DNA of 64,000 bases from Streptomyces sp. KMM 9044 (GTDB lineage Bacteria > Actinomycetota > Actinomycetes > Streptomycetales > Streptomycetaceae): contig NZ_CP113910.1 of assembly GCF_024701375.2 (NCBI RefSeq), positions 3,410,001 to 3,474,000 of the forward strand. The letters are read 5' to 3'. Each line of letters opens with the position of its first letter. Position 1 is the first letter of the stretch. A program made the translations under genes and the position numbers. This document shows positions 28,948 through 50,902 of the stretch, piece after piece. The notes beneath the pieces are model-generated. The model was not told the DNA's origin and did no database searches. It saw only the letters and a program-made list of their open reading frames with translations.

Positions 28948-29160
28948 GTGACGGTCGTCGTGGGCGCAGGTATCTCGGGTCTCATGACCGGCGTGGCGCT
29001 GTCAGAAGCCGGGCTCTCCGCGCGTGCCGTGGCCGAGGGGGTTCCCGTGCGCACGTCGCTCGCGGTCGGCGCGATGTGAAGGCCGTATGTTGTCGAGCCT
29101 TGGGCGAAGGTCCGGGAGGGGAGCCTTGCGTCGCTTGGCGTCTTCAGGAGGCTCGCAGGG
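28948..29160 (+). pseudogene. D-amino acid oxidase-like gene fragment
   Basis: From GTG 28948 the frame reads VTVVVGAGISGLMTGVALSE, the FAD-binding GxGxxG start of a D-amino acid oxidase. It then meets a stop at 29077-29079, where the family normally has GAMWGPY (here GAM, stop, RPY). The same frame continues with recognisable family sequence (YVVEPWAKVREGSLASLGVF) and fades by ~29160. The remaining ~230 residues of an oxidase are absent. This is a 5' remnant with a nonsense mutation. Confidence 0.72.
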
Positions 29161-29348
29161 ACGACGCGCCCGGTGTTTCTGTCACCCGGTGCTGACAACC
29201 GAGATGCCGCAGAAGATCATCAAAAAATGATGGAGGGTTCACGCACCGCTTGGAAGGGGCCGGGCCATCGGGGCCGCGAACACGTCGACGGCGCAATGAC
29301 ATTGAGGAAGCTAAGGTGGGATCCGTCGCCGAACTAGGGAGTTCCAGC

Positions 29349-29786
29349 ATGGACCCGATCACCGCAGCGGCCCTCGCCGCGCTGGCCGGCGGTCTCGGCG
29401 GCGAAGCCGGACGTCAGGCATGGCAAGGACTCACCGCGCTGGTGCGGCGCCCGTTCGGGCGAGCCGCGACACAGGGAACACAAGACGACGGGACACCCCA
29501 GGTCAGCTCCGGCGAACTCGAAGTCGCCGCGCTGGCGGGTGACCCTGCCGACCCGATGCGTGCCCAGGCACTGGCCACCGCCCTCGGCGTACGAGCGGCC
29601 CTGGATGGAGAGTTCCGCGTACTGCTCGATGAGTGGTGGCAGCAGGCACAAGCCAGCTCCTCGGGCGGCGACGTGCACAACAGCATCAGCGGCGGCACCC
29701 AGAATGGCCCAGTGCTCCAAGGCCGGGACTTCTCAAGTCTCACCTTCAACATGACGCGCAACACAGCCTCCTCCGAAGGAGACTGA
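29349..29786 (+). CDS. Small helical protein with C-terminal amyloid-signalling-like motif
   Basis: 145 aa from ATG 29349. Residues 1-35 are Ala/Gly/Leu-rich and amphipathic (DPITAAALAALAGGLGG). The middle is helical, with MRAQALATALGVRAALDGE. Residues ~109-134 read VHNSISGGTQNGPVLQGRDF and onward: an N-x-I-x-G ... GPVLQGRDF pattern like the bacterial amyloid signalling sequences (BASS3/RHIM-like). A short helical effector domain followed by a C-terminal motif is the layout of Bell-domain effectors. A related motif starts the convergent gene at 31584. The function as a cell-death effector is inference. Confidence 0.58.
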   Translation: MDPITAAALAALAGGLGGEAGRQAWQGLTALVRRPFGRAATQGTQDDGTPQVSSGELEVAALAGDPADPMRAQALATALGVRAALDGEFRVLLDEWWQQAQASSSGGDVHNSISGGTQNGPVLQGRDFSSLTFNMTRNTASSEGD

Positions 29787-30090
29787 TCGGAAGGAGGCTG
29801 GGCAGAGCTCGCAGCGGCGCGTCACCAGGTCGGGCGACTGGGCGAGTCAGCCGCCGCATGCCGCCCGGAACGCCATGAGCGTGTCAGTCAGCTGCTGCCT
29901 GAAACTCGGCCCCTTCCTTGTCCGGGTGGCTGCCACGGCGGCCCGATCACACGCCTGACTTGCTGCACAGATGTCGCCGGAAGCACGAGGGCGCCCTTCT
30001 TGAAGCCGGTGTCGATGCCGTGTCGGCTCTCCTCAGATCCCGGAATCCGAACGTCACAGCAGGGGGTTCCTGATCGATCTACCGGGGGAA
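29787..30090. other. Non-coding gap between convergent genes
   Basis: 304 bp between the two convergent amyloid-motif genes. No gene with a supportable start, codon bias or domain was seen. Confidence 0.45.
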
Positions 30091-31584
30091 TCACTCAGAC
30101 TGCGCGTTCAGCCAAGCCTCCATAATCATCGACGCCTCCTTTTGCTCGGCCGCGGACTGTTCTAGATCTTCTTCCCATTCCACACAGCTAAACAGCCCTA
30201 TCTGCCGCCATTCATCCAACGGAGCTTCGAGGCCCTCACCATTGGCCTCGTCGAGAGCGCGCCTTGCCGCGCTGTAGACCAACCGCAATTCGGCTCCGAC
30301 GACATGGTATTCATCGTGTACCGGAAGAAGCCGCTCATGCAGGGGCAATTTCCTGTCTACCTCGACATATCCGAGGTAACTGGTAACCGCTTCACGCATC
30401 GCTTCGTGCAGGTCCACCGTCTGCCCTTCACTGAGCCCAGAAACGGTAGCGACGGCGAGGTTACTGGACCGAATCAGAGTAGTAAGCCCAGGCACTGTGA
30501 GGGACTTCAAGAGGGCGGGTTCCCGAGCAAGGAAATGAGCAGCGAGGTCAGCGGCCGCCACACCGTTACGGTCGAAGAGTAGACTCGCGACGGCCATACC
30601 CAGATCACGCCGATACTCGGGGACGACCCGTGAGACCTGGGTCAGCACATCTCGGTCGATCTGCCCGGGAAACACCTTATCTTCATCAAATAGTAGAGCG
30701 ATACTCTTTCGGCTCACGGTTTCCCTTCCCTGCAGTTGATCACCGTAGAGCTGCGACAGCTCCGACCTTGACAGTTCGTTACGAAAGTCCGCCCAGGTCA
30801 AACCGGGCGGCTCCGGCAGAACAGATCTCTTTGCATAATCAAACTGAGCCTGCGCCAGGGTTTCCGGCTGCCCGAACACAAGCGCCGAGATTCGAATATT
30901 CCCCTCTTCCGATACCGACGCCACAGTTCCGATACCCGAGACGATAAGCGGCTCCCGAGCAGCTTCATGGAGCGTTGTATTCGCCGTCGCCGTCGTAAGC
31001 CAACGCGGGTCGAAGGTGATGATCACCTTCCTTGCCCCGAGAGGGAAGACGAGGTGGGGATCCTTGGTCAGGACTCCAGTCGGCTCCTTCAGCGGAACCT
31101 CGGGCGGGTTATTGCAGCGCATAGCGCTTTCGAAGGAGACCAAAAGGCCACGATGCACCTTCTCTGCCGTGCGCTCGCAGAGCGCAACCGCCTCCGCGTC
31201 CCATGTCTCGAACAAGGGGCGAACGATCCGGACGAACTCCCCTGGCGCCATCCCCTGCCCGCCAAACGGTCTCGTGCTGTCGAGTCCGGCTCTCCTTGCC
31301 GCAGCCGCCACCGCGTTGCCCTGCGTGAGCATCGCTACCCGTGGCAGGTTGACCAAGTCGACACTGGAAAACCGGGCTCGCCAAATCTGTGACGATCTGC
31401 GCAATTCCTCGGCGAGGGCCTCGTCGGTATGCTCGGCTACCGGCAGCGGGCCTGTCATTGTGATACTCACGTCGCCGTGGATCGCCCCTGCTTGGATGGC
31501 TGGGCCAGCCACCTGCCCAGAGAGGTCATTTCTGACATCAGACGGTTTCGGGGAGGCGCCCTCTCCGCCCCCTACTTGCTCCAC
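30091..31584 (-). CDS. Unknown 497-aa protein with N-terminal amyloid-signalling-like motif
   Basis: 497 aa from ATG 31584. Residues ~17-42 (VRNDLSGQVAGPAIQAGAIH and onward) follow the pattern N-x-L-x-G ... GPxIQAGxIxG typical of BASS3/RHIM-like motifs in Streptomyces. No nucleotide-binding, TIR, protease or transmembrane domain was recognised in the remaining ~450 residues, which are mixed helix and strand (for example KVIITFDPRWLTTATANTT, RRDLGMAVASLLFDRNGVA). GC content is clearly lower here than in neighbouring genes, suggesting separate acquisition. By analogy an N-terminal motif marks the sensor side of a pair. Confidence 0.6.
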   Translation of the reverse strand: MEQVGGGEGASPKPSDVRNDLSGQVAGPAIQAGAIHGDVSITMTGPLPVAEHTDEALAEELRRSSQIWRARFSSVDLVNLPRVAMLTQGNAVAAAARRAGLDSTRPFGGQGMAPGEFVRIVRPLFETWDAEAVALCERTAEKVHRGLLVSFESAMRCNNPPEVPLKEPTGVLTKDPHLVFPLGARKVIITFDPRWLTTATANTTLHEAAREPLIVSGIGTVASVSEEGNIRISALVFGQPETLAQAQFDYAKRSVLPEPPGLTWADFRNELSRSELSQLYGDQLQGRETVSRKSIALLFDEDKVFPGQIDRDVLTQVSRVVPEYRRDLGMAVASLLFDRNGVAAADLAAHFLAREPALLKSLTVPGLTTLIRSSNLAVATVSGLSEGQTVDLHEAMREAVTSYLGYVEVDRKLPLHERLLPVHDEYHVVGAELRLVYSAARRALDEANGEGLEAPLDEWRQIGLFSCVEWEEDLEQSAAEQKEASMIMEAWLNAQSE

Positions 31585-31845
31585 TGCTGCCTCCCGCTCA
31601 TTCTCACGCCACGTGACCAGCCCACCTGACAGGCAGTAAACACCATCTGCCGTACTCGCAAAGGGTGTTCAGGTCGACCGAAGGCTGCCGGCGTCCGGCC
31701 GCCGCGCGAGTGAACTCTGCTGGGCACGACAGTGCCGAAGCATCTGTGCTGAGCCGGTCTCGAGCACGTCTGTCTGTCAGTGCTGCTCCCTAGGATGCAC
31801 AGTGAACACTCATCCAAGGATTACGGCACACGGGGGGCATGCTCA

Positions 31846-33567
31846 GTGAGCGCAACAGGCCGCAGGCGCCAGTCCGCTAGCCCGGAACCGACGATCGTGC
31901 CGGTCTCCCGGCTCGCCGACCGTGTGCTGACCGGCGAGATCGTGCTGCCGAAGTACCAGCGGGCGTTCGTGTGGGGGCCGCACCAGATCCTCCACCTCCT
32001 GGATTCGGTGCTGCGCAACTACCCCATCGGCAGCCTGCTGCTGTGGGACACCACGGAGCAACTCGCCAGCGAGGAGACCGTCGCGGGCTTGGACGTGGAC
32101 CCGCCGCGTCCAGGTCGCCCGGTCAAGTACATTCTCGACGGCCAGCAGAGGCTCGCCAGCATCATCGGCGCACTGCACGGCGGCACCGGCTCCTGGGACA
32201 TCGCCTACGACCTGGAAGAGGAGCGCTTCTTCCAGCGCACCCCGGAGAGCCCGGCCGGACCGCACATCATTCCCATGCGGAAGGTGAGCTCGGCGGGATC
32301 CCTCTTCGGGCAAGTGGCCGAGTTGTCCCCCGAGCTGCGCGAGCGTGCGACCGAGCTGTACGAGCAGTTCGCCAATTACCTGGTGCCAGTGGTGACCTTG
32401 GACCACATGTCGGCTGAGGAGTCGGCGGAGGTCTTCGTACGGATCAACAGCACGGGCACGACGATGAACATCGTCGACGTGGCGCGGGCCGGCACATGGA
32501 GCCCCGACTTCGACCTCAAGGAGGAGATCGAATCACTGCTCCAGGTCCTCGACGCGAAGCGCTACGGCCGGGTCGACACCAAGACCATGCTCCGCACGAT
32601 CGCGGTTGCCTCCGGATTCGGGTTCTCCACCAAGGACATCAACCGTCTGAGAGAACTCGACAAGGAGCGGTTGCGGGAGGCTGTGGCCGAGGCAGCGAAG
32701 GCGGCCGAGCGGGCGGTGGACTTCCTCAGCACCCAGATCCGTACACCGAAGGCCGATGCACTGCCCTACTACAACCAGTTCGCGGTGCTCGTCGAAGTGT
32801 TCCGGCAGCTACCGAAGCCATCGTCCGCGCAGTACGACGCGTTGCGCCGCTGGTTCTGGCTGACCGCGAGCGGTGAGTACTTCAAGGGCTGGAGCGAGGC
32901 CCAGATGGGTCCCGATCTGCAGGCGATCACTTCCTTCGCCAAGGGCGAGGCCCAAGAGATCGAGACGGGAGCGGCACTCCCGCGGAGCGCCGTGTGGCGG
33001 CGGAGCGCTTTCTCCAAACGGAATGCACCGAGCAAGCTCCTCGCTCTCCTCCTTGCGTACGAGGACCCGCTGGATTTGCTCACCGGGCAACGGATCGACG
33101 TGGGCAGGGCCTTGTCGTGGCAGAACGACAAGGAGTTTCACCACTTCTTTCCCAAGGCGTTTCTGCGGTCGCGCGGGGTGAGCAGTGCCGGGGCGAACGT
33201 CTGCGGCAATCTGGTCATGCTGACCTCCCACAGCAACATCTGGGTGACCGACCGGCCGCCCTCGCAGTATCTGCGGGACCTGGCCGATATCGAGGGCGAG
33301 GGACCGCTACGTGAGCGGTTGAGCACCTGCCTGGTCGAGGAAGACGCCTACCAGGCGGCACTGCGGGACGACTACGACACATTTCTGCGCGTGAGGTCGG
33401 AGACGTTGCACCGGCGGTTGATGCAGTTGATCGGTGGAGCGGCGGGACCGGTGAGTTCTGCCGCGAGGGGTGAGGTGCAGTCATTGCCCGATGACGAGGG
33501 GCTGGAGGAGGAAGCGGACTCCGACTCCCTCCTGGACGAACCGATCGACCGCGATTCTGCGGACTGA
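31846..33567 (+). CDS. DUF262/GmrSD-like restriction protein
   Basis: 573 aa from GTG 31846, chosen for GGGGGG 8 nt upstream; ATG 31780 would add 22 residues. The DUF262 (GmrS-like) domain begins VPVSRLADRVLTGEIVLPKYQR and has the key YILDGQQRLASI motif near residue 90 and FVRINSTGTTMN near residue 196. The C-terminal part has an HNH-like DUF1524 centre, FHHFFPKAFLRSRG, followed by NLVMLTSHSN, as in GmrD. Both halves in one chain match single-polypeptide type IV (modified-DNA-dependent) restriction enzymes. It lies in a defence cluster with RadC and type I RM genes. Confidence 0.82.
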   Translation: MSATGRRRQSASPEPTIVPVSRLADRVLTGEIVLPKYQRAFVWGPHQILHLLDSVLRNYPIGSLLLWDTTEQLASEETVAGLDVDPPRPGRPVKYILDGQQRLASIIGALHGGTGSWDIAYDLEEERFFQRTPESPAGPHIIPMRKVSSAGSLFGQVAELSPELRERATELYEQFANYLVPVVTLDHMSAEESAEVFVRINSTGTTMNIVDVARAGTWSPDFDLKEEIESLLQVLDAKRYGRVDTKTMLRTIAVASGFGFSTKDINRLRELDKERLREAVAEAAKAAERAVDFLSTQIRTPKADALPYYNQFAVLVEVFRQLPKPSSAQYDALRRWFWLTASGEYFKGWSEAQMGPDLQAITSFAKGEAQEIETGAALPRSAVWRRSAFSKRNAPSKLLALLLAYEDPLDLLTGQRIDVGRALSWQNDKEFHHFFPKAFLRSRGVSSAGANVCGNLVMLTSHSNIWVTDRPPSQYLRDLADIEGEGPLRERLSTCLVEEDAYQAALRDDYDTFLRVRSETLHRRLMQLIGGAAGPVSSAARGEVQSLPDDEGLEEEADSDSLLDEPIDRDSAD

Positions 33568-34279: not shown

Positions 34280-35455
34280 CTACAGCTGCCCGGAGAACGC
34301 GGCGTTGAGGAGGGCGGGGCGGACAGCAGTCAGAAGGTCGTCACGGTGGCGCTGGCGGTCATCAAGGGTCCGAACTTTCTGCATGAATGCATTGAGATCG
34401 GCGACCGCCTGCTTGTGGCGGTCGCGCGGAATTCTGGGAATCTCCATGGCCATGAGAAGACCAGAGCGAAGGCGCGGAAGCTGGAGATTATGAGTGGCAT
34501 TTAGGACCTTATCCAGAGTGGATTTGCTCCGCAGGCCGGCTGCAAGAAGCTCGCCAGGCATGATGCCGTTAGGGCGCAGTACATACTGCTCCACACTGCA
34601 CAGCCCAGCACGGTCGGCAAGCCACACCTTGTTTAGATAGGGGCGCAGGTAACCATAGAGAACATCCCCCGATGCGAACCTGAACTTACGCCCCTTCTCA
34701 TCACCGAGCGGGCGTGATCCGATTCGCGTACCGAAGTGTGGCGCAATGTGTTCCAGGCCCACGAACTCTCTGGCCGGGCTTGGGTCGTCACCAGGATGGA
34801 CAGTGTCGCTTACCAGTGCGCAGGCATCGTCCACTCTGACGGTGCCGGTTGCCCAGCGGCCGAGTACCTGATCGAGCCCAGCTACTGCGAGGCGGCGACT
34901 ATTTTCCGAGCCAGGAGATAGCGCAACCGTTGTGTCAAATTTTGACATGAGGATGTCGAGCTTGTCGGCGACGCGGCGTTGCTCGCTCAAGCCGGGCAGG
35001 GGGACTTCGATACTCAGGAGCCTCTGCGCGCTAACCCGCTCTCTGCGGGCCCCGATACCCTTCGACTCGCCCTGTAGCATCTGCCAGAACGTCGGCCACG
35101 AGCAAAGATGCTTGAGATATCGGGGTTCAGCTTCACTCTTCACCACCTCGAACGTCGGGAACTCAGCTGACGCGCAATACCCATCAAGCTCTTCCGGTAC
35201 GAACGCGATTGCACCCTCAAATGCCTTAAGTCTACTCATCACAAGATTCCCCGCTCGCAGACGATTGAGGGTCTTGTAAGAGGTTTCATTTCCGCTAATG
35301 GCGTCACGAGGAAATGCGCCATTCCCGAATCCCCGAACTCCGGCGATTCGGTATTGAGTATCTGCCTCAACGTCCACCTGCTCCAATGCGGGCGACAGCC
35401 CGCACCCGAGCGGACGCAATGGGTACTTACTCAACGCTTCCCCCCAGCTCATCAC
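34280..35455 (-). CDS. hsdS: Type I restriction specificity subunit
   Basis: 391 aa from ATG 35455 (MMSWGEALSKYPLRPLG). Two target-recognition domains are separated by conserved helices: the first ends at VPLPGLSEQRRVADKLDILM (near residue 165), the second at IPRIPRDRHKQAVADLNAFM (near residue 345). HsdS sets the recognition sequence for both methylation and cleavage. It overlaps hsdM by 29 nt. The GC content is low in the second variable domain, typical for recombining hsdS. Confidence 0.9.
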   Translation of the reverse strand: MMSWGEALSKYPLRPLGCGLSPALEQVDVEADTQYRIAGVRGFGNGAFPRDAISGNETSYKTLNRLRAGNLVMSRLKAFEGAIAFVPEELDGYCASAEFPTFEVVKSEAEPRYLKHLCSWPTFWQMLQGESKGIGARRERVSAQRLLSIEVPLPGLSEQRRVADKLDILMSKFDTTVALSPGSENSRRLAVAGLDQVLGRWATGTVRVDDACALVSDTVHPGDDPSPAREFVGLEHIAPHFGTRIGSRPLGDEKGRKFRFASGDVLYGYLRPYLNKVWLADRAGLCSVEQYVLRPNGIMPGELLAAGLRSKSTLDKVLNATHNLQLPRLRSGLLMAMEIPRIPRDRHKQAVADLNAFMQKVRTLDDRQRHRDDLLTAVRPALLNAAFSGQL

Positions 35456-36935
35456 GCAGCTCCCCCAGCAGCCCCAGAATCTCGCTCTCCGTCTTGATGA
35501 GCTCGTTCACAAGCTCCTCCGGAGAGCGGTGAGTCAGACCCTCTCCGACGTGTGGGTTAGGGATGTCGAGGTTGAACCCAGCTTTCGCAATCTCAGTCGC
35601 CGATACCTTCCATGCATTTTCTCCCTCTTCGCGGCCCTCACGCATCGCGCCGCCCCACCACTCCACGCACGGGGCGAACTCCTCGAACCGCATCGGCTTC
35701 GTCTTGGTATAGCCGCGGCGTCCTTCCGGCAGCGGGACCTCGTAGAACCAGACCTCCTTCGTCGGTTGCCCTTTCTCGAAGAACAGCAGATTCGATGGGA
35801 TCTGGGTGTACGGCGCGAACGCGCCCTGGGGCAAGCGGACGATGGTGTGCAGGTTGCACTCCTGCATCAGCTTCTGCTTGATACGAGCTCCGATACTGTT
35901 CTCGCCAGTGGCGAAGAGACTGCTGTTCGGCAGGACGATCGCGCAGCGCCCACCCTTCTTCAGCTGGTCAAGGATGGCGTGCAGGAAGAGCCACGAAGTC
36001 TCCTGGGTCTGGTAGCCCTTCGGGAACTTCTCGACAACCGACCGTTCTTCCTCACCGCCGAACGGCGGGTTCGTCAACACCACGTCCACCCGGTCCGCTG
36101 CGGTCGCGTCCCGCATCTGCAGCAGGGCGTTTTCTCGCACCAACCGCGGCGCGCCGATACCGTGCAGCAGCAGGTTCATGCTGGCCAGGAGGTACGGGAG
36201 AGACTTCTTCTCGATTCCGCGGATGTCGTCGTGCAGCTGCCTGCGCTGGGTGTCGGTCTCCACCCGCTGCACCAGGTCCTCGTACGCCTGGACCAGAAAG
36301 CCACCTGTACCACAGGCCGGGTCGAGGATCGACTCCCCGAGTTCGAGGAAGGACTGCTGCACCATGAAGCGGTTGACGGGGCGAGGGGTGTAGAACTCGC
36401 CGGAATCGCCGGCTGCGTCTCGCATCTCCTTGAGGATCGACTCGTAGAGGAACGCCATCGTGTGGATGTCGTCCGAGGAGTCGAAGTGGATCTCGTCCAC
36501 CAGGTTCACCAGGTCCCGTAGGAGGGTCCCGGACTGCATGCGGTTGTTGACGTCCTTGAAGATGGTCGACAGAACGTTCCGTGGGTCCTCGGCGTCGCCG
36601 TCGGCGCCCTTCAGTCCGGCAAGATGCGGGATGAGTTCGTCGTTGACGAAGGTCTTCAGTTCGTTGCCGCTGAAGTCCGGCTTCGTCGCCCAGTCCTCCC
36701 ACCGGTACGGCTTCTCGATCGCCGGACGATAGTCGGGGTCGAGTAGCGGTCCCACCTGTTCGACACGCTGGTCGAACGCCTTGAGGAACAGCAGCCAGGA
36801 GAGCTGGGGAAGGCGGTCGAGGTCACCGTTGAGGCCGGCGTCCTTGCGCATTGTGTCGCGCGCCGACTTGATGACGGACGCGAGCCGCGCCCGTGACGTG
36901 GTGGCCGCAGCCGCCTTCTTCTTGGTGGACGCCAT
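35427..36935 (-). CDS. hsdM: Type I restriction N6-adenine methyltransferase
   Basis: 502 aa from ATG 36935 (MASTKKKAAAATTSRA). The HsdM N-terminal helical domain is followed by the methylase core: motif I ILDPACGTGGFLVQAY near residue 190, motif IV VVLTNPPFGG near residue 260 and TPRPVNRFMV just before motif I. It methylates adenine within the target set by HsdS. The start lies 1 nt after the AbiEii stop, so the modification genes share a transcript with the toxin-antitoxin genes. Confidence 0.95.
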   Translation of the reverse strand: MASTKKKAAAATTSRARLASVIKSARDTMRKDAGLNGDLDRLPQLSWLLFLKAFDQRVEQVGPLLDPDYRPAIEKPYRWEDWATKPDFSGNELKTFVNDELIPHLAGLKGADGDAEDPRNVLSTIFKDVNNRMQSGTLLRDLVNLVDEIHFDSSDDIHTMAFLYESILKEMRDAAGDSGEFYTPRPVNRFMVQQSFLELGESILDPACGTGGFLVQAYEDLVQRVETDTQRRQLHDDIRGIEKKSLPYLLASMNLLLHGIGAPRLVRENALLQMRDATAADRVDVVLTNPPFGGEEERSVVEKFPKGYQTQETSWLFLHAILDQLKKGGRCAIVLPNSSLFATGENSIGARIKQKLMQECNLHTIVRLPQGAFAPYTQIPSNLLFFEKGQPTKEVWFYEVPLPEGRRGYTKTKPMRFEEFAPCVEWWGGAMREGREEGENAWKVSATEIAKAGFNLDIPNPHVGEGLTHRSPEELVNELIKTESEILGLLGELRDELGGSVE

Positions 36936-36936
36936 C

Positions 36937-37833
36937 TCAGTCTTTCTGCTTCGGTTCGGCTTCGCCGTTGTCATATGCCTCGCGCCAGAATCCGCGCACC
37001 AGGTCGAGCGCGGCGTCGAGTCGAGGGGGAGTATCGGTGAGGTCCTCGGCCAGTTCGGGGTAGATCTGGGCCCAGCTCGGCGGTGGTTCGGGGAGCACCG
37101 CCGGCACCTCATGCGTCGCCCGTACGGCGAATACATGCCGTACGGCACCAACCACGGATGTGTCTGGGGCTAGGCCGCTCTCGATGAGTAGTACCAGGTC
37201 CACCAGGTCCTTGACTCTGGTATTGGGTCGGTCGCCGTAGTCGCGGGTGAAGGCGTGCAGCTTCTCGGCGAAGTGCTGGCGACGGTCCACAGCCTCGATG
37301 TCTCGGGGCGGAGTTCCGGCGAAACCCAGGGTGTTGGGCAGCGGAAGCCTCTCTGTCAGGGCGATCTCCTCTCCCCGTGCGACGACATCGATGCGTACGG
37401 TCGCGAAGATCCTGCCCGCCAGTCGGGACTCGACGGAGAAACGCCAGCCGCCCCTGCCTGCCGTGTCGGCCTTGAGCTCGATGGGAGGGGACACCTGGAA
37501 CAGGAAGCCATCCCTGTCCGCGTCCACTGCGAGCACGTCGATGAGGAGTTCACGCACTGCTGGGCCGTCAAGTCCTGGTTCTCCGTCCGGGCGGGCAGCG
37601 AGGTCCATGTCCTTGGTTGTGCGCGCTCTGCCACGCAGACGGAACTCCATCACCGCCCCGCCCTTGAGGACCCAGCCAGCTGCCGGGTCAGCGGAGAGCC
37701 GGGCTGCAACTCGATCAAAGACAACGAGACGGCGCCGCCTAGCCAGGTCTGTACCGGTATCGGCTGCCTGCTGCTTAAGCCGGACCTCAAGGGCCCGCCG
37801 GAGCGCGGTGGCGTCACGATAGCGATCGGTCAC
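36937..37833 (-). CDS. AbiEii-like nucleotidyltransferase toxin
   Basis: 298 aa from GTG 37833, overlapping the AbiEi-like stop (GTGA). The nucleotidyltransferase fold of the AbiEii/AbiGii toxin family is shown by WVLKGGAVMEFRLRGRARTT, then KDMDLAA, near residues 48-75. HFAEKLHAFTRD and RVKDLVDLVLLIES follow. Type IV toxins of this family transfer nucleotides to tRNA or other targets and stop growth on phage infection. It sits between hsdR and hsdM in the same direction. Confidence 0.87.
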   Translation of the reverse strand: MTDRYRDATALRRALEVRLKQQAADTGTDLARRRRLVVFDRVAARLSADPAAGWVLKGGAVMEFRLRGRARTTKDMDLAARPDGEPGLDGPAVRELLIDVLAVDADRDGFLFQVSPPIELKADTAGRGGWRFSVESRLAGRIFATVRIDVVARGEEIALTERLPLPNTLGFAGTPPRDIEAVDRRQHFAEKLHAFTRDYGDRPNTRVKDLVDLVLLIESGLAPDTSVVGAVRHVFAVRATHEVPAVLPEPPPSWAQIYPELAEDLTDTPPRLDAALDLVRGFWREAYDNGEAEPKQKD

Positions 37834-38429
37834 TGCGCCTCCTGAAGCGCCCGCTCGATACCGAGTTCCGCTCGCGCGCCCAGCCGCTGGGCCGTGTGCA
37901 GGAGGCGTCGCCGGGTGGCCAGCCCACGCTCCAGAGCCTCGGCGACGGCGGAGTCCACTACGTCCTGGTCCACCTGCGCGGCCGCGCACTCGATGATCGC
38001 CCGTACCGGTGTCGTCACTCGGTAGCCGTCGCGCTCCTCGATCTCGTCCTGGGCGAGTTCGGTCCGGTGAAGGATCACGGCATCGTCTTTCTGCCGAAAG
38101 CCGGGAGGGACTGTGAAGTGGATCTGTGAGGGGTTGGCGGTCCCCAGGTCGTGGACAGACAGGGCGGTGGTGTGGGAAACGATCGCGCGCCCCTTGCTCC
38201 ACAGGGACCAGCGGACGAGATGGTCGTCCTCACCGCCTGGCAGAACGTCGAACTCGCGGAAGCGGTAGATGCCACGGTCGACCGCCGTCCAGTTGCCGCG
38301 CTGGGCGTGATACCGCTGGGCTTGATACGAGTACCCAGCCTCAAGCGCCTGAGCTGCTGTGAAGTAACCACGCTGCCCGCCAGCGATACGCCAGAGGGCA
38401 GCCCTGGTGTCCGTACGGTCCCTGAGCAC
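37830..38429 (-). CDS. AbiEi-like antitoxin
   Basis: 199 aa from ATG 38429. The N-terminal winged helix is GYFTAAQALEAGYSYQAQRY, followed by WTAVDRGIYRF. The C-terminal domain includes HTTALSVHDLGTANPSQIHF and TTPVRAIIECAA. This is the usual layout of type IV TA antitoxins, which also repress their own promoter by binding inverted repeats. A candidate operator lies at 38467-38503. Confidence 0.85.
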   Translation of the reverse strand: MLRDRTDTRAALWRIAGGQRGYFTAAQALEAGYSYQAQRYHAQRGNWTAVDRGIYRFREFDVLPGGEDDHLVRWSLWSKGRAIVSHTTALSVHDLGTANPSQIHFTVPPGFRQKDDAVILHRTELAQDEIEERDGYRVTTPVRAIIECAAAQVDQDVVDSAVAEALERGLATRRRLLHTAQRLGARAELGIERALQEAQ

Positions 38430-38466
38430 CTATCCAGCCTATCAGGGGCGAATACCTAACAGTCGT

Positions 38467-38503
38467 CTTTAGTTTAGCGTGAGCTACCAACATCAAACTA
38501 AAG
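38467..38503. promoter_or_regulatory. Inverted repeat upstream of abiEi
   Basis: CTTTAGTTT (38467-38475) and AAACTAAAG (38495-38503) form a perfect 9-bp inverted repeat with a 19-nt spacer, in an AT-rich 85-bp gap between hsdR and abiEi. AbiEi proteins are known to bind inverted repeats at their own promoters, so this is the best operator candidate. As RNA it could also pause transcription leaving hsdR. Confidence 0.6.
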
Positions 38504-38514
38504 TTTTATTTTAC

Positions 38515-40962
38515 TTACGAAGCTTCCAGTAGCCGCTTACTCAGCTCGTCAATGGCCGCGTGCAGAGGCTTGGCGCCGCCGAAGCGGTTCGCCAGCTCGA
38601 CCACCGAACCCATCTCGGTGAAGGGGCGCACCCCGAGGGTTTCCGGCTTGAGCTGGGGCGAGCCATGCTCGGCGAACTTCAGCAGCATCTCCTCCAGCAC
38701 CTGTCGCGCTTGAGGCTGGAAGGACTCCAGGAAGTCCCGGTGCTCGTGCAGGAACCGGTACAGCCGTTCCTCCCGGCTGACCAGCGGCAGTCCCCAGGCG
38801 ACGTTGAGGAGCAGGTCAACCGGATCGACATCCGGGCTGCCGAACTCCGCAGGCAGTTCCTCCGCCTCCACGTCGGCGGTGTGCAGGATGACCATGAGTT
38901 CGCGTCGGCTCTTGGCGACGGCCCACTGGGAGCGCAGCTTGTCCGGTGCTAGGTCGAGTTCGAGTACGCGGTCGTGTACCCACTGCTGGATGGTCACCAG
39001 CCTCATCGTCCGGCCGTCCGTGTCGAGCTGGTAGCGCCGCTCGCCCCACTTGTAGACATGGACCCCGTTGACCACGTAGCGCCTGCCGCGGGATTGGATG
39101 CGGTCCACCTCGTCAGGGTCGTCCACCCTGTCAGCGGCACGGGGCTCGTCGAAGCTTCCGCCGTCCATCTGGTCGTACGCGGCCTCGCGCTCGGCCACGC
39201 TCTCCGGGGCGATCTCGTCGCCGTCGGGGGTCTCCGGTGCGCTCCCGACCACATGCCCTTGCTCGTCGGCGGTATCGCGTACAACGCGGAGCGGAGGACC
39301 GTCGAACCCGGGGTCGTTGAAGAGCCGGGTGGCCTCGACGAAGTCGATGATGTCGAAGGATCCCTTGCCGATCTCCGGGCACAGACGGGTGCCCCGACCG
39401 ATGGTCTGTTTGAACTCGGGCATCGAGCCGATGCGCCGGAACAGGACGATGTTGCGTACGGCCGGCAGGTCGATACCAGTGTTGAGCAGCTTCGACGTCA
39501 CGGCGATCACTGGTTCGTCGGAGTCGTCTTTGCGGAAGTCATCCAGCAGAGCCCGGCCATGGGGGCCGTCGGCGTCGGTGATCCGCACGACATAGTCGTG
39601 GTGCGCCTGCACCTCCGCCGAGGCCGCGTTGAAGAGGGCCGTGCGCATGCGTGCGGCGTGGTTGTTGTCCTCGCAGAACACGATGGTCTTGCCGTGCTTG
39701 CCGTCCTCCGCGGTGGAGCGCAGGTAGTCGATGACGTACTGCGCCGCCGCCTCCGTGCGCTCCAGGATCACCATGACCCGCTCGAAATCCTTCGGGCCAT
39801 AGACGCCCTCCGGGATCTCGTTGCCGTACTTGTCCCGCTGCCCTGGCTCGGTCTGGTAGCCCTCCATGTCCACGTTGAGCCGGACCCGGCGCACCCGGTA
39901 TGGGGCCAGGAAGCCGTCCTCGATGCCGTCAGCCAGCGAGTAGGTGTAGACGGGCTCGCCGAAGTAGTCGAAGGTGTCGGCCTCCTTCTTACTGATCGGG
40001 GTGGCGGTCAGCCCGAGCTGGGTCGCAGGTGAAAAGTGCTCCAGCACGCGACGCCACTGCGAGTTGTCCCGGGCACTGCCCCGATGGCACTCGTCCACGA
40101 TGATCAGGTCGAAGTAGTCGGGTTCGTAGCGACGGAAAAGTTCTTCCTCATCGCCCTTCTCCAGCGCCTGGTAGAGGGCGAAGTAGATCTTCCGGCCCCG
40201 CACGGGTTCGCCGCTGATCTTGTGGACGTCGTCCTGGCCGAAGACGGGGAGGAAGTACTTGTCCTTGGGGTCGTCGACAAGCATCGAGCGGTCCGACAGG
40301 TACAGAACCCTGGGCTTGCGGCCCGAGATCCACTGGGACCTGTAGAGCTTGGCGACCGTCTGAAGGGCCACCATGGTCTTCCCCGTACCGGTGGCCAGCA
40401 CAAGGAGGATCCGCTTCTGCCCTGCGGCGATGGCCGCCAGGGTGCGGGCTACCGCGACGCGCTGGTAGTAGCGGGGCCGCTTGGCGGTGTTGTCCGAATT
40501 TCGCAGTGTGTGATCGTAGAGGGCGGCCAGGAGTTCGCGTCCGACGCTGGAGTCCGCCTGCTGGTCGGCCAGATAGCGGCTCCACAGCTCCTCGGGCGTG
40601 GGGAAACGGTCGATCTCCCGGATCGCGGGAGCAGCACCGCTGTAGTCGATCTCGACGATCTGCCGGCCGTTGGTGGCGTAGGCGAAGGACAGCCCGAGCT
40701 TCGCGGCGTACCGACGAGCCTGCTCCACACCGTCGTTGGCATCGACGCGGTAGCGCTTGGCCTCGACAACCCCGATGGGGACGTCCGGCGCGTACTCCAG
40801 CACATAGTCGGCAACCAGAGGGTCGCCGTAGACGTGCCGCTTCGGCGTGGGTGTGAGCCGCCCGTCGTTGATGCGGAACTGCGGGCGAATCTGATCACTG
40901 GTCCACCCGGAATCCGCGAGGGCAGGTATAACCAATGCCCGGCACGTCTCGTCTTCTGTCAT
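38515..40962 (-). CDS. hsdR: Type I restriction enzyme R subunit (EcoEI-type)
   Basis: 815 aa from ATG 40962 (MTEDETCRALVIPALADSG). The N-terminal nuclease-like region has DYVLEYAPDVPIGVVEAKRY, the D...ExK core, near residues 55-75. The SF2 translocase has motif I LVLATGTGKTMVALQT near residue 186, the Walker B IVDECHRGSARD near residue 287, motif III LTATP and motif VI QTIGRGTRLCPEIG near residue 520. A C-terminal EcoEI_R domain follows. It translocates DNA and cuts when the site is unmethylated. It heads the RM/TA operon. Confidence 0.94.
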   Translation of the reverse strand: MTEDETCRALVIPALADSGWTSDQIRPQFRINDGRLTPTPKRHVYGDPLVADYVLEYAPDVPIGVVEAKRYRVDANDGVEQARRYAAKLGLSFAYATNGRQIVEIDYSGAAPAIREIDRFPTPEELWSRYLADQQADSSVGRELLAALYDHTLRNSDNTAKRPRYYQRVAVARTLAAIAAGQKRILLVLATGTGKTMVALQTVAKLYRSQWISGRKPRVLYLSDRSMLVDDPKDKYFLPVFGQDDVHKISGEPVRGRKIYFALYQALEKGDEEELFRRYEPDYFDLIIVDECHRGSARDNSQWRRVLEHFSPATQLGLTATPISKKEADTFDYFGEPVYTYSLADGIEDGFLAPYRVRRVRLNVDMEGYQTEPGQRDKYGNEIPEGVYGPKDFERVMVILERTEAAAQYVIDYLRSTAEDGKHGKTIVFCEDNNHAARMRTALFNAASAEVQAHHDYVVRITDADGPHGRALLDDFRKDDSDEPVIAVTSKLLNTGIDLPAVRNIVLFRRIGSMPEFKQTIGRGTRLCPEIGKGSFDIIDFVEATRLFNDPGFDGPPLRVVRDTADEQGHVVGSAPETPDGDEIAPESVAEREAAYDQMDGGSFDEPRAADRVDDPDEVDRIQSRGRRYVVNGVHVYKWGERRYQLDTDGRTMRLVTIQQWVHDRVLELDLAPDKLRSQWAVAKSRRELMVILHTADVEAEELPAEFGSPDVDPVDLLLNVAWGLPLVSREERLYRFLHEHRDFLESFQPQARQVLEEMLLKFAEHGSPQLKPETLGVRPFTEMGSVVELANRFGGAKPLHAAIDELSKRLLEAS

Positions 40963-41233
40963 CCCCTGCGCAGCTGTCACCACACGGAGAGTAGTGCCGC
41001 TGATCGCGGCTGTCCTCACCCTTGGCGAGATCCAGCCTCTCCCTGACGTGGAGCAGACGATGTCGCCCCCGACAGCTCGCTCGGACCGGAGGACACGCCC
41101 CGCGCGCGGCGCGGCCCAAAGCCCTGCCGCCCATGCCTGCATCCGCACGCGAGCTAGGTCCTGTCTGAGATTCAGATCATGAGTTAGGTGGATCGCCTGC
41201 GCGCGGAGGCTCGGTCTTGATAGGTCATGAGTC

Positions 41234-41728
41234 ATGGCGCGAGGCGATCTCACCGATGAGCAGTGGTCCCTGGTTGAACCCCATCTCCCGTATGCCGCGG
41301 TCGGGCCCATCCCTGATCTGCGAAAGTACTTCAACGCGGCGATGTGGCGGTTCCGCACCGGGGCTCCCTGGCGTGATCTGCCGACCGAGTTTGGGCCCTG
41401 GCAGAGTGCGTACGACCGCTTCCGGATCTGGGCGAAGCGGGGCATCTTCCAGCAGGTGATGGAAGCGATGATCGCCGAGGCTGCCGCCCGTGACCAGGTT
41501 GACATGGGTCTGGTCAGCGTGGACTCGGCAACCTCCCGCGCTCACCACCATGCCGCCGGGATGGTCCTCGATCCCGAGCAGCCGGCGGCCCTTGAGGCCG
41601 CCGCCGAAGCGGAAAAGGGGGCGGCAAGGAGGGGCAACAGCCGCAGGACGGACAAGGTGATGCCCAAGGCGAAGACGAGGCACGTACCGAGCGACGACGG
41701 ATCCGCAGACGGCGCCGGGCCCGGTTGA
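41234..41728 (+). CDS. IS5-family transposase, N-terminal frame
   Basis: 164 aa. It opens with the DUF4096-like segment (LTDEQWSLVEPHLP, YFNAAMWRFRTGAPWRDLP) and carries the first catalytic aspartate in LVSVDSATSRAHHHAAG near residue 97. The stop at 41726-41728 overlaps the next frame. The downstream frame is in the -1 position, so a full transposase would need -1 frameshifting, as known for the IS427 group of IS5. Confidence 0.88.
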   Translation: MARGDLTDEQWSLVEPHLPYAAVGPIPDLRKYFNAAMWRFRTGAPWRDLPTEFGPWQSAYDRFRIWAKRGIFQQVMEAMIAEAAARDQVDMGLVSVDSATSRAHHHAAGMVLDPEQPAALEAAAEAEKGAARRGNSRRTDKVMPKAKTRHVPSDDGSADGAGPG

Positions 41729-50005: not shown

Positions 50006-50902
50006 ATGGACTGGCTGGAGCGCACCGCGAAGCTGAGGCAGTGGAGCAGAAACGGGACCCGCGCTCCGCACAAGCCGCTGCTGTTGCTGTACGCCCTCGG
50101 CCGGTTCCAGCAGGATGCCGCCGGCGAACTGCGGTACAGCGCGGTGGAGGAGGATCTGCAGCGCCTGCTGACCGAGTACGGTCCGCCCCGCAGGACGACG
50201 CCCGCCTACCCGTTCCACCATCTGGTGAGCGACGGCGTGTGGGAAGTGCGGACCGATCGCGGGCCGGGCAGTCCCGGCAGTAACGTGCGGGAGCTGCGGC
50301 ACGTCGGAGCCGCAGGACGGCTGGCGCCGGAACTGCGGGCGGCGCTGCGGCGGGAGCCGTCGTTGCTCGGCCGGATGGCGCGGCTCCTGCTCGACCTGCA
50401 CTTCCCGCCCTCGCTCCACGGCGACCTGTGCGAATCCGTCGGTCTGGAGCTGGAGTCGGCGGGGACCGGAGAGCTCTCGGCCGCCGTGCGGAGGCGGCGG
50501 GATCCGCGGATGCGGGAGCGGGTCCTGACGGCCTACGAGTACCGGTGCGCCTTCTGCGGCTACGACGGCAGGATCGGCGCGGTGCCGGTCGGGCTGGAGG
50601 CCGCGCACGTGCGCTGGTGGGCGTTCGGCGGCCCCGACGACGTCGACAACGGACTGTGCCTGTGCTCGCTGCACCACAAGCTCTTCGACAAGGGCGTCCT
50701 CGGCATCGGCGACAGCCACCGCATCCTGGTCTCGCAGCGCTTCGTCGGCCACAGTCCCGCCGCCCGGGAGCACGTCACAGCGCTCGCGGGCCGCCCGCTC
50801 ATCGGACCTCAACCGGGTGCCCGTCCCGTCGCGGCGGTCCACCGCTCCTGGCACACCAGCCAGGTCTTCCACGGCAGCCCGCGCCCCGCCACGGCCGGCT
50901 GA
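50006..50902 (+). CDS. HNH endonuclease of the phosphorothioated-DNA type
   Basis: 298 aa from ATG 50006 (MDWLERTAKLRQWSRNGTRA); an ATG at 49973 would add 11 residues. The N-terminal ~165 residues resemble the sulfur-binding domain of ScoMcrA/SprMcrA-like type IV enzymes (APHKPLLLLYALGRFQ, TPAYPFHHLVSDGVWEV). The HNH domain has CAFCGYDG, then LEAAHVRWWAFGGPDDVDNG and LCSLHHKLFDKG, near residues 180-230. Such enzymes cut phosphorothioate- or methyl-modified foreign DNA. It lacks an SRA domain. Confidence 0.82.
   Translation: MDWLERTAKLRQWSRNGTRAPHKPLLLLYALGRFQQDAAGELRYSAVEEDLQRLLTEYGPPRRTTPAYPFHHLVSDGVWEVRTDRGPGSPGSNVRELRHVGAAGRLAPELRAALRREPSLLGRMARLLLDLHFPPSLHGDLCESVGLELESAGTGELSAAVRRRRDPRMRERVLTAYEYRCAFCGYDGRIGAVPVGLEAAHVRWWAFGGPDDVDNGLCLCSLHHKLFDKGVLGIGDSHRILVSQRFVGHSPAAREHVTALAGRPLIGPQPGARPVAAVHRSWHTSQVFHGSPRPATAG

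Follow-up and report, generated by a model that had tools for sequence, protein, structure and literature searches.

Do bacterial signalling amyloids also operate in pathways that are independent of NLRs? This question, raised as an open one in a review of the field (PMC7889193), is posed in concrete form by two adjacent genes in a stretch of 64,000 nucleotides (hereafter the window) of a 7.43 Mb Streptomyces chromosome. In the two-gene signalosomes of the BASS type (Dyrka et al. 2020), as outlined in PMC7889193, PMC8086366 and PMC9815663, an NLR is paired with a Bell effector. Here, both products carry a short motif of an amyloid-signalling-like type, and the larger one looks like a receptor of another kind. 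We read the pair as a defence module of two genes that resembles an amyloid signalosome but has a receptor other than an NLR, and give this reading of the whole mechanism a probability of about 0.6.

A mobile gene pair in a defence region

The smaller gene (29349..29786, + strand) is an ORF of 145 aa for a putative effector, and the larger one (30091..31584, - strand) is an ORF of 497 aa with a GTG start, whose product combines an N-terminal motif with a putative sensor module. Both genes converge, with stop codons 304 bp apart. The low GC content that had been put forward for the locus is found in the large gene (0.601) and not in the small one (0.687), which is close to the window as a whole (0.693). 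The proposed placement in a defence cluster held: the pair is adjoined by a GmrSD_N (DUF262-type) protein, labelled PDC-M55C by PADLOC (31780..33567, + strand; Pfam and PADLOC), and by HsdS, HsdM, AbiEii, AbiEi and HsdR (34280..41505, - strand), a type I restriction-modification (R-M) system interrupted by an AbiE pair, with RadC also among the neighbours. PADLOC gave no CD-NTase label among the nine window genes neighbouring the pair. Type I R-M genes of differing families were seen near the pair at four of the six complete loci, the remaining two having been merely sampled (window 34280-41505; L038 2603-9543; L115 9013-14859; L090 14672-17866 with L114 1-4971), a proximity that may reflect shared defence islands or a sensor watching R-M. 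Directly upstream of the small gene, a FAD-oxidase-like remnant (VVVGAGISGL...) was noticed by eye at window positions 28948-29079, and a DAO-family ORF (Pfam DAO, 3e-9) adjoins the pair at L089 6001-6921 too.

A blastn comparison revealed that a cassette spanning 29304..31692 (no strand) is the sole part of the window that matches five other complete loci; within it, the central intergenic DNA is not shared. As the shared DNA corresponds to the two genes and the examined flanks do not match, the pair travels as a unit. G1234 and G1232 share a 2768-bp stretch at 98% identity, with non-matching flanks on either side. Moreover, the 3'-terminal 26 bases of tRNA-Ser(GGA) are repeated beside the pair at four loci (26/26 bases in three, 25/26 in one), with an intact tRNA-Ser 7.8, 14.6 and 23.6 kb away in three of them, as is seen in tRNA-anchored islands. 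No intact tRNA was present in the DNA examined around the pair of G1257, and the window and L038 are devoid of the repeat. No gene was identified as an integrase; the tRNA neighbours an ORF for a transposase in G1232 and for HsdM in G1063. The pair is real, conserved and mobile.

Motif-bearing large genes were found at seven loci (window, L038, L039, G1063, G1257, G1234 and G1232), and small-gene orthologues occur at five loci other than the window, so that six of the seven have both genes in tail-to-tail order, 4-304 bp apart. In the seventh, L039 of S. odonnellii, the large gene is frameshifted near residue 306 and the genome holds no small-protein relative, a single case of partner loss, on a contig of draft quality whose frameshift may stem from faulty sequencing.

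The motifs and the company they keep

The small protein comprises an N-terminal, helical-looking domain (residues ~1-98), a loose linker and a C-terminal motif, and matches no Pfam or PADLOC family (DUF4769, at E 0.033, is below the cut-off). Its motif (residues 109-134; 29673..29750, + strand) and the N-terminal motif of the large protein (residues 17-42; 31459..31536, - strand) are both of a GPxxQ type. With HMMs trained on motifs of other genes (11 N-terminal, 11 C-terminal), the former scored 58.7 bits (C-type HMM) and the latter 47.9 bits (N-type HMM, match over residues 17-41), against a top score of 9.6 bits among 10,000 shuffles across three HMMs, in line with the sequence-only reading of a convergent pair with amyloid-signalling-like motifs. 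These two proteins gave the sole strong motif matches among the 701 window ORFs of at least 50 aa. Since the training motifs were gathered via similarity to the two proteins, several of the C-terminal ones coming from homologues of the small protein, this test reveals membership in a recurring class and not independence. A first pattern search had overlooked variants that the HMMs later recovered.

Selection points to the same stretches. Among six orthologues of each gene, dN/dS in the motif of the large protein was 0.13, as compared with 0.43 in the preceding and 0.29 in the following residues (whole gene, 0.216), and in that of the small protein 0.05, as compared with 0.67 in the preceding and 0.37 in the following residues (whole gene, 0.227), in values that pool all pairs of six sequences, and hence non-independent pairs, with L039 omitted. 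The slowest-evolving stretch of each protein is therefore its motif, flanked by loose linkers. In addition, the motif is kept in 7/7 large orthologues of the motif-bearing clade and in 6/6 small orthologues.

The two motifs are not copies of one another. Their spacing differs by one residue (SG-4-GP versus SG-3-GP), and the subtypes cross-match weakly, with best domains of 3.9 and 5.8 bits that fall within the shuffle range; a combined N+C HMM aligned them without this one-residue gap. The same two subtypes meet in the classical, overlapping NLR/effector pair of L024, where TPR repeats accompany a NB-ARC match slightly below the Pfam cut-off, so that such asymmetry is normal for the class. Receptor-side bearers of the motif that are not NLRs are not unique either, as six of the ten other proteins of this kind tested have no Pfam family. 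At L023 (6231-8878), L025 (5751-10226) and L028 (7009-9291), arrays of motif-bearing small ORFs mix the receptor-side and effector-side subtypes, and a 761-aa ORF among these loci carries the motif in its middle.

As for the class itself, the BASS3/RHIM-like label initially given to both motifs had to be dropped. The Frankia peptide ORT49035.1, listed as BASS3 in Table 2 of PMC8086366, in which a BASS3 peptide was shown to aggregate, reached scores of only 2.3 and 1.8 bits against the HMMs of the two motifs. Its VQVG core, followed by N-x-Q, is missing from both window motifs, and neither of them has an [IVLM]Q[IVLC]G tetrad; the motif of the large protein does hold two Gln seven apart as in BASS3, but in a different context, in a comparison made with one published BASS3 sequence and one BASS3-like sequence. 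By their sequences, the motifs look like another class of the BASS type. A GPxxQ-like motif may be that of BASS1.

Relatives of the small protein were found in 34 of 101 genomes of the same genus, and 21 of their loci were read (20 in other genomes and one in the source genome). Nine motif-bearing large ORFs were picked at eight of these loci and none at the remaining 13; seven of the nine are NB-ARC or NACHT proteins, five of them above the Pfam cut-off, and two have no family. Two of the nine motifs are weak, those at L102 (E 0.82) and L106 (E 0.072). Relatives of the small protein thus adjoin motif-bearing NLRs at 7/21 loci, and the best reading of these sequences is that the tag of the large protein would recruit an effector of the kind otherwise used by NLRs. 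In the source genome itself, a further relative of the small protein (49.6-52% identity) adjoins a motif-bearing NB-ARC/TPR protein, at L093. There (C1:3885000-3901000), this relative, the NB-ARC/TPR protein and a 26-base tRNA-Ser end occur within 16 kb, and cross-talk with the window pair in the same cell is possible.

The module of the large protein and its HNH-bearing homologues

Searched against Pfam, the large protein gave no match up to E 1; PADLOC assigns it no family, and its one NCBIfam match, to AMP deaminase, is far below the cut-off. No NTPase (NB-ARC or NACHT) domain is detectable with Pfam, as had been anticipated from the sequence, nor is a repeat domain, and an HNH nuclease is also missing. 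Its residues 51-497 (30094..31434, - strand) form a module shared, at 35-41% identity and with a junction near residue 50, with nine proteins that carry an N-terminal HNH nuclease in place of the motif. Full-length relatives of residues ~51-497 were found in 4/295 genomes of the genus (source genome included), 8/391 of the order and 2/394 of the class, and in the source genome alone among 396 of the phylum, in samples that overlap; weak partial matches, which make up five of the seven matching class genomes and one of the two matching phylum genomes, were not counted as homologues. Residues 51-497 gave no match in the phages, plasmids or viral contigs searched, and a pattern-limited scan of genome contigs gave nine loci of the module. 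Counting each source once, we find 16 module proteins, of which seven are of the motif type and nine of the HNH type (G068, WAC 01529, S. adelaidensis, UNOC14_S4, S. aurantiacus, Microtetraspora, Nocardiopsis kunsanensis, NRRL B-1140 and G1069).

The nuclease of the latter scores below the Pfam cut-off for HNH_2 in the three homologues tested (14.5-17.2 versus 21 bits), and the C-x2-C, His, Asn and C-x2-C-H residues are invariant in 8/8 aligned domains. A profile built from eight of the nine domains matches structures of SAVED proteins, namely 8fm1 (E 3.7e-11), 7rwm (5.3e-10), 9dif, 8ysq, 7rwk and 9om4, and a full-length homologue matches the same six chains via its first ~110 residues only. 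Two of them, 7RWK and 7RWM, correspond to Cap5, where the binding of a ligand causes the sensor domains to stack and DNA to be cut (PMC8568899).

HNH and motif are mutually exclusive on the same module (nine versus seven). The best motif score among the nine HNH proteins is 2.2 bits, and no HNH domain occurs near the large gene at the seven motif loci (best tblastn E 0.39). As the same sensor domain is elsewhere joined directly to a DNA-cutting enzyme, this distribution suggests that one output has been exchanged for the other, nuclease versus prion-like tag, an arrangement with a precedent in EAD10, an adaptor domain whose place on a sensor can be taken by effectors such as HNH (PMC8195603). 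When the presence of the motif was checked across relatives, the nine distant homologues with HNH instead of motif strengthened, and did not refute, the receptor reading. In the tree, both types split across one branch with a support of 100/99, for five of the seven motif-type and all nine HNH-type proteins (G1257, dropped by a selection on the string WEEDL, and L039, with its broken gene, being left out). Midpoint rooting served for drawing, and Nocardiopsis forms a long branch, so that an order of HNH first and motif later is not given by the tree.

In the sampled surroundings of the HNH homologues, the HNH-type loci L046 (11493-18157), L020, L040, L043 and L091 share ORFs of ~897, 540-570 and 732 aa without Pfam family, possibly a larger undescribed defence locus, and L046 also shows weak PADLOC matches to ZacB and mad2. 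An ORF with a CHAT domain (L044 11404-12438, E 6.7e-6) lies directly downstream of the Microtetraspora gene, and an 873-aa ORF whose receptor-side motif is weak (L045 15364-17982, 13.0 bits) about 4 kb from that of Nocardiopsis. Within the window, an HNH_2 match of 48.6 bits at 50546-50707 (+) belongs to an unrelated 310-aa frame.

A structural model of the 497-aa protein, which the sequence-only reading had called for, could be made, with a fold that is uncertain. Predicted from a nine-row alignment, it has a mean pLDDT of 49.1 and a pTM of 0.35, and the single-sequence prediction (pLDDT 34.7) was of no use. The fold matches of this weak model, a tentative OB-fold-like barrel at residues 130-241 (30862..31197, - strand) and a tentative ferredoxin-like or ACT-like fold at residues 290-414 (30343..30717, - strand), are thus leads only. 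A structure search with the module by sequence alone gave nothing under E 0.3. The module was also considered as a SAVED domain, a candidate rejected at the sequence level as no relation was found (hhalign probability 0.14%), although the profiles are shallow and the model is poor. A 367-aa, HTH-looking actinobacterial ORF (L033 1288-2388, - strand) shares the central stretch of the module (profile positions 92-159, E 1.7e-6), and that part may therefore be a separate domain.

Proposed mechanism, alternatives and known systems

In the mechanism that we favour, residues 51-497 would act as a sensor that binds an invasion cue and then oligomerises, gathering the N-terminal GPxxQ motifs; these, once clustered, would serve as a template for their C-terminal counterpart in the small protein. 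The N-terminal domain of the small protein would then execute the response, in which the infected cell most likely stops growing or dies. Output in cis through a Cap5-type HNH nuclease and output in trans through a prion-like tag and a separate effector would be alternatives on one sensor. Amyloid formation, the direction of signalling, the ligand, toxicity and an anti-phage role are parts of this scheme that we infer. More tentatively, and at somewhat under even odds, we propose that a Cap5-like family of sensor nucleases was re-plugged, a prion-like tag taking the place of HNH, to give an amyloid-signalling receptor that is independent of NLRs. Its new sensor module might combine an OB-fold with a ferredoxin-like domain and recognise a nucleic acid or nucleotide ligand, whose binding would drive one and the same oligomerisation, activating the nuclease in the HNH branch and nucleating an amyloid in the tag branch.

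Neighbouring genes that are transferred jointly, with a partnerless large copy that is broken as an unprotected toxin would be, could also be viewed as a toxin-antitoxin-like pair, in which the small protein keeps a toxic or enzymatic large protein inactive through a non-amyloid contact between motifs. A tail-to-tail order is, however, unusual in toxin-antitoxin operons, and the family of the small protein is common to NLRs. Moreover, no relative of the small protein was found in regions of 13-21 kb around each of the nine HNH homologues, so that, when joined to HNH, the module can do without an antidote of this sort, and we regard this view as unlikely. No more likely is a hub effector, that is, a small protein answering other motif receptors, with the large protein as one input among several or as a modulator; the second relative next to the NB-ARC/TPR protein in the same genome speaks for it, but the cassette is co-inherited with its own small gene at 6/7 loci.

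The motifs themselves admit two further explanations. Aligned directly, the two proteins have their motifs as the best stretch, which is not significant alone (326 of 2000 shuffles scored as high), as would be expected for a chance likeness between unrelated low-complexity tails; this is contradicted by the conservation in orthologues and ruled out by the HMM scores against shuffles and the dN/dS constraint, leaving it extremely improbable. Somewhat less improbable than the toxin-antitoxin and hub views, but still doubtful, is that the motifs are ordinary short docking peptides and not amyloid seeds, given that the amyloid reading draws on sequence similarity to an amyloid-signalling arrangement and that the motifs do not match the BASS3 peptide whose aggregation is described in PMC8086366. 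Against it, their location, length, Gly/Asn/Gln/Ser-rich make-up, hydrophobic core and distribution among NLRs and effectors are BASS-like, as these features are presented in PMC7889193 and PMC9815663.

The signalosome-like reading makes the pair a concrete and testable candidate for an NLR-independent bacterial signalling amyloid, with a built-in control, as the same sensor also exists fused to a nuclease. If the swap is true, the HNH form would reveal the cue of the sensor and its activating oligomeric state, and whether prion-like tags and enzymes are interchangeable as outputs would become a question that can be asked. No description of this family was found in the literature searched, a scope outside which the supplementary lists of the primary BASS paper fall. 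What appears new is a variant of amyloid-motif signalling with a non-NLR receptor, together with the apparent swap from nuclease to motif, the amyloid nature being putative.

Among known systems, the BASS signalosome is the closest in layout, as the genes are neighbours, the motif is N-terminal in the large and C-terminal in the small partner, and relatives of the small protein adjoin motif-bearing NLRs. In contrast, the receptor of the window has no detectable NTPase or repeat domain and is thus not an NLR, its genes are convergent and not overlapping, and a Bell-type membrane domain in the small protein would be putative, as its hydropathy over 19 residues peaks at 1.09 (residues 3-21), which does not clearly indicate a transmembrane helix. 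With BASS3/RHIM-like motifs the pair shares a short Gly-rich motif with a conserved hydrophobic-Gln core, but neither the tetrad nor a match to the published peptide. The nine HNH-type homologues of the large protein have the same type of N-terminal HNH as Cap5 (HNH-SAVED, CBASS) before a large C-terminal module, whereas the window protein lacks HNH and its C-terminal module shows no sequence relation to SAVED, as judged from shallow profiles. Finally, although the adaptor of the window is a motif of ~26 residues and not a folded EAD or death-like domain, the pair resembles the EAD/bDLD adaptor systems outlined by Kaur et al. 2021 (PMC8195603), in which adaptor and effector (HNH, REase, TIR and others) interchange on one sensor.
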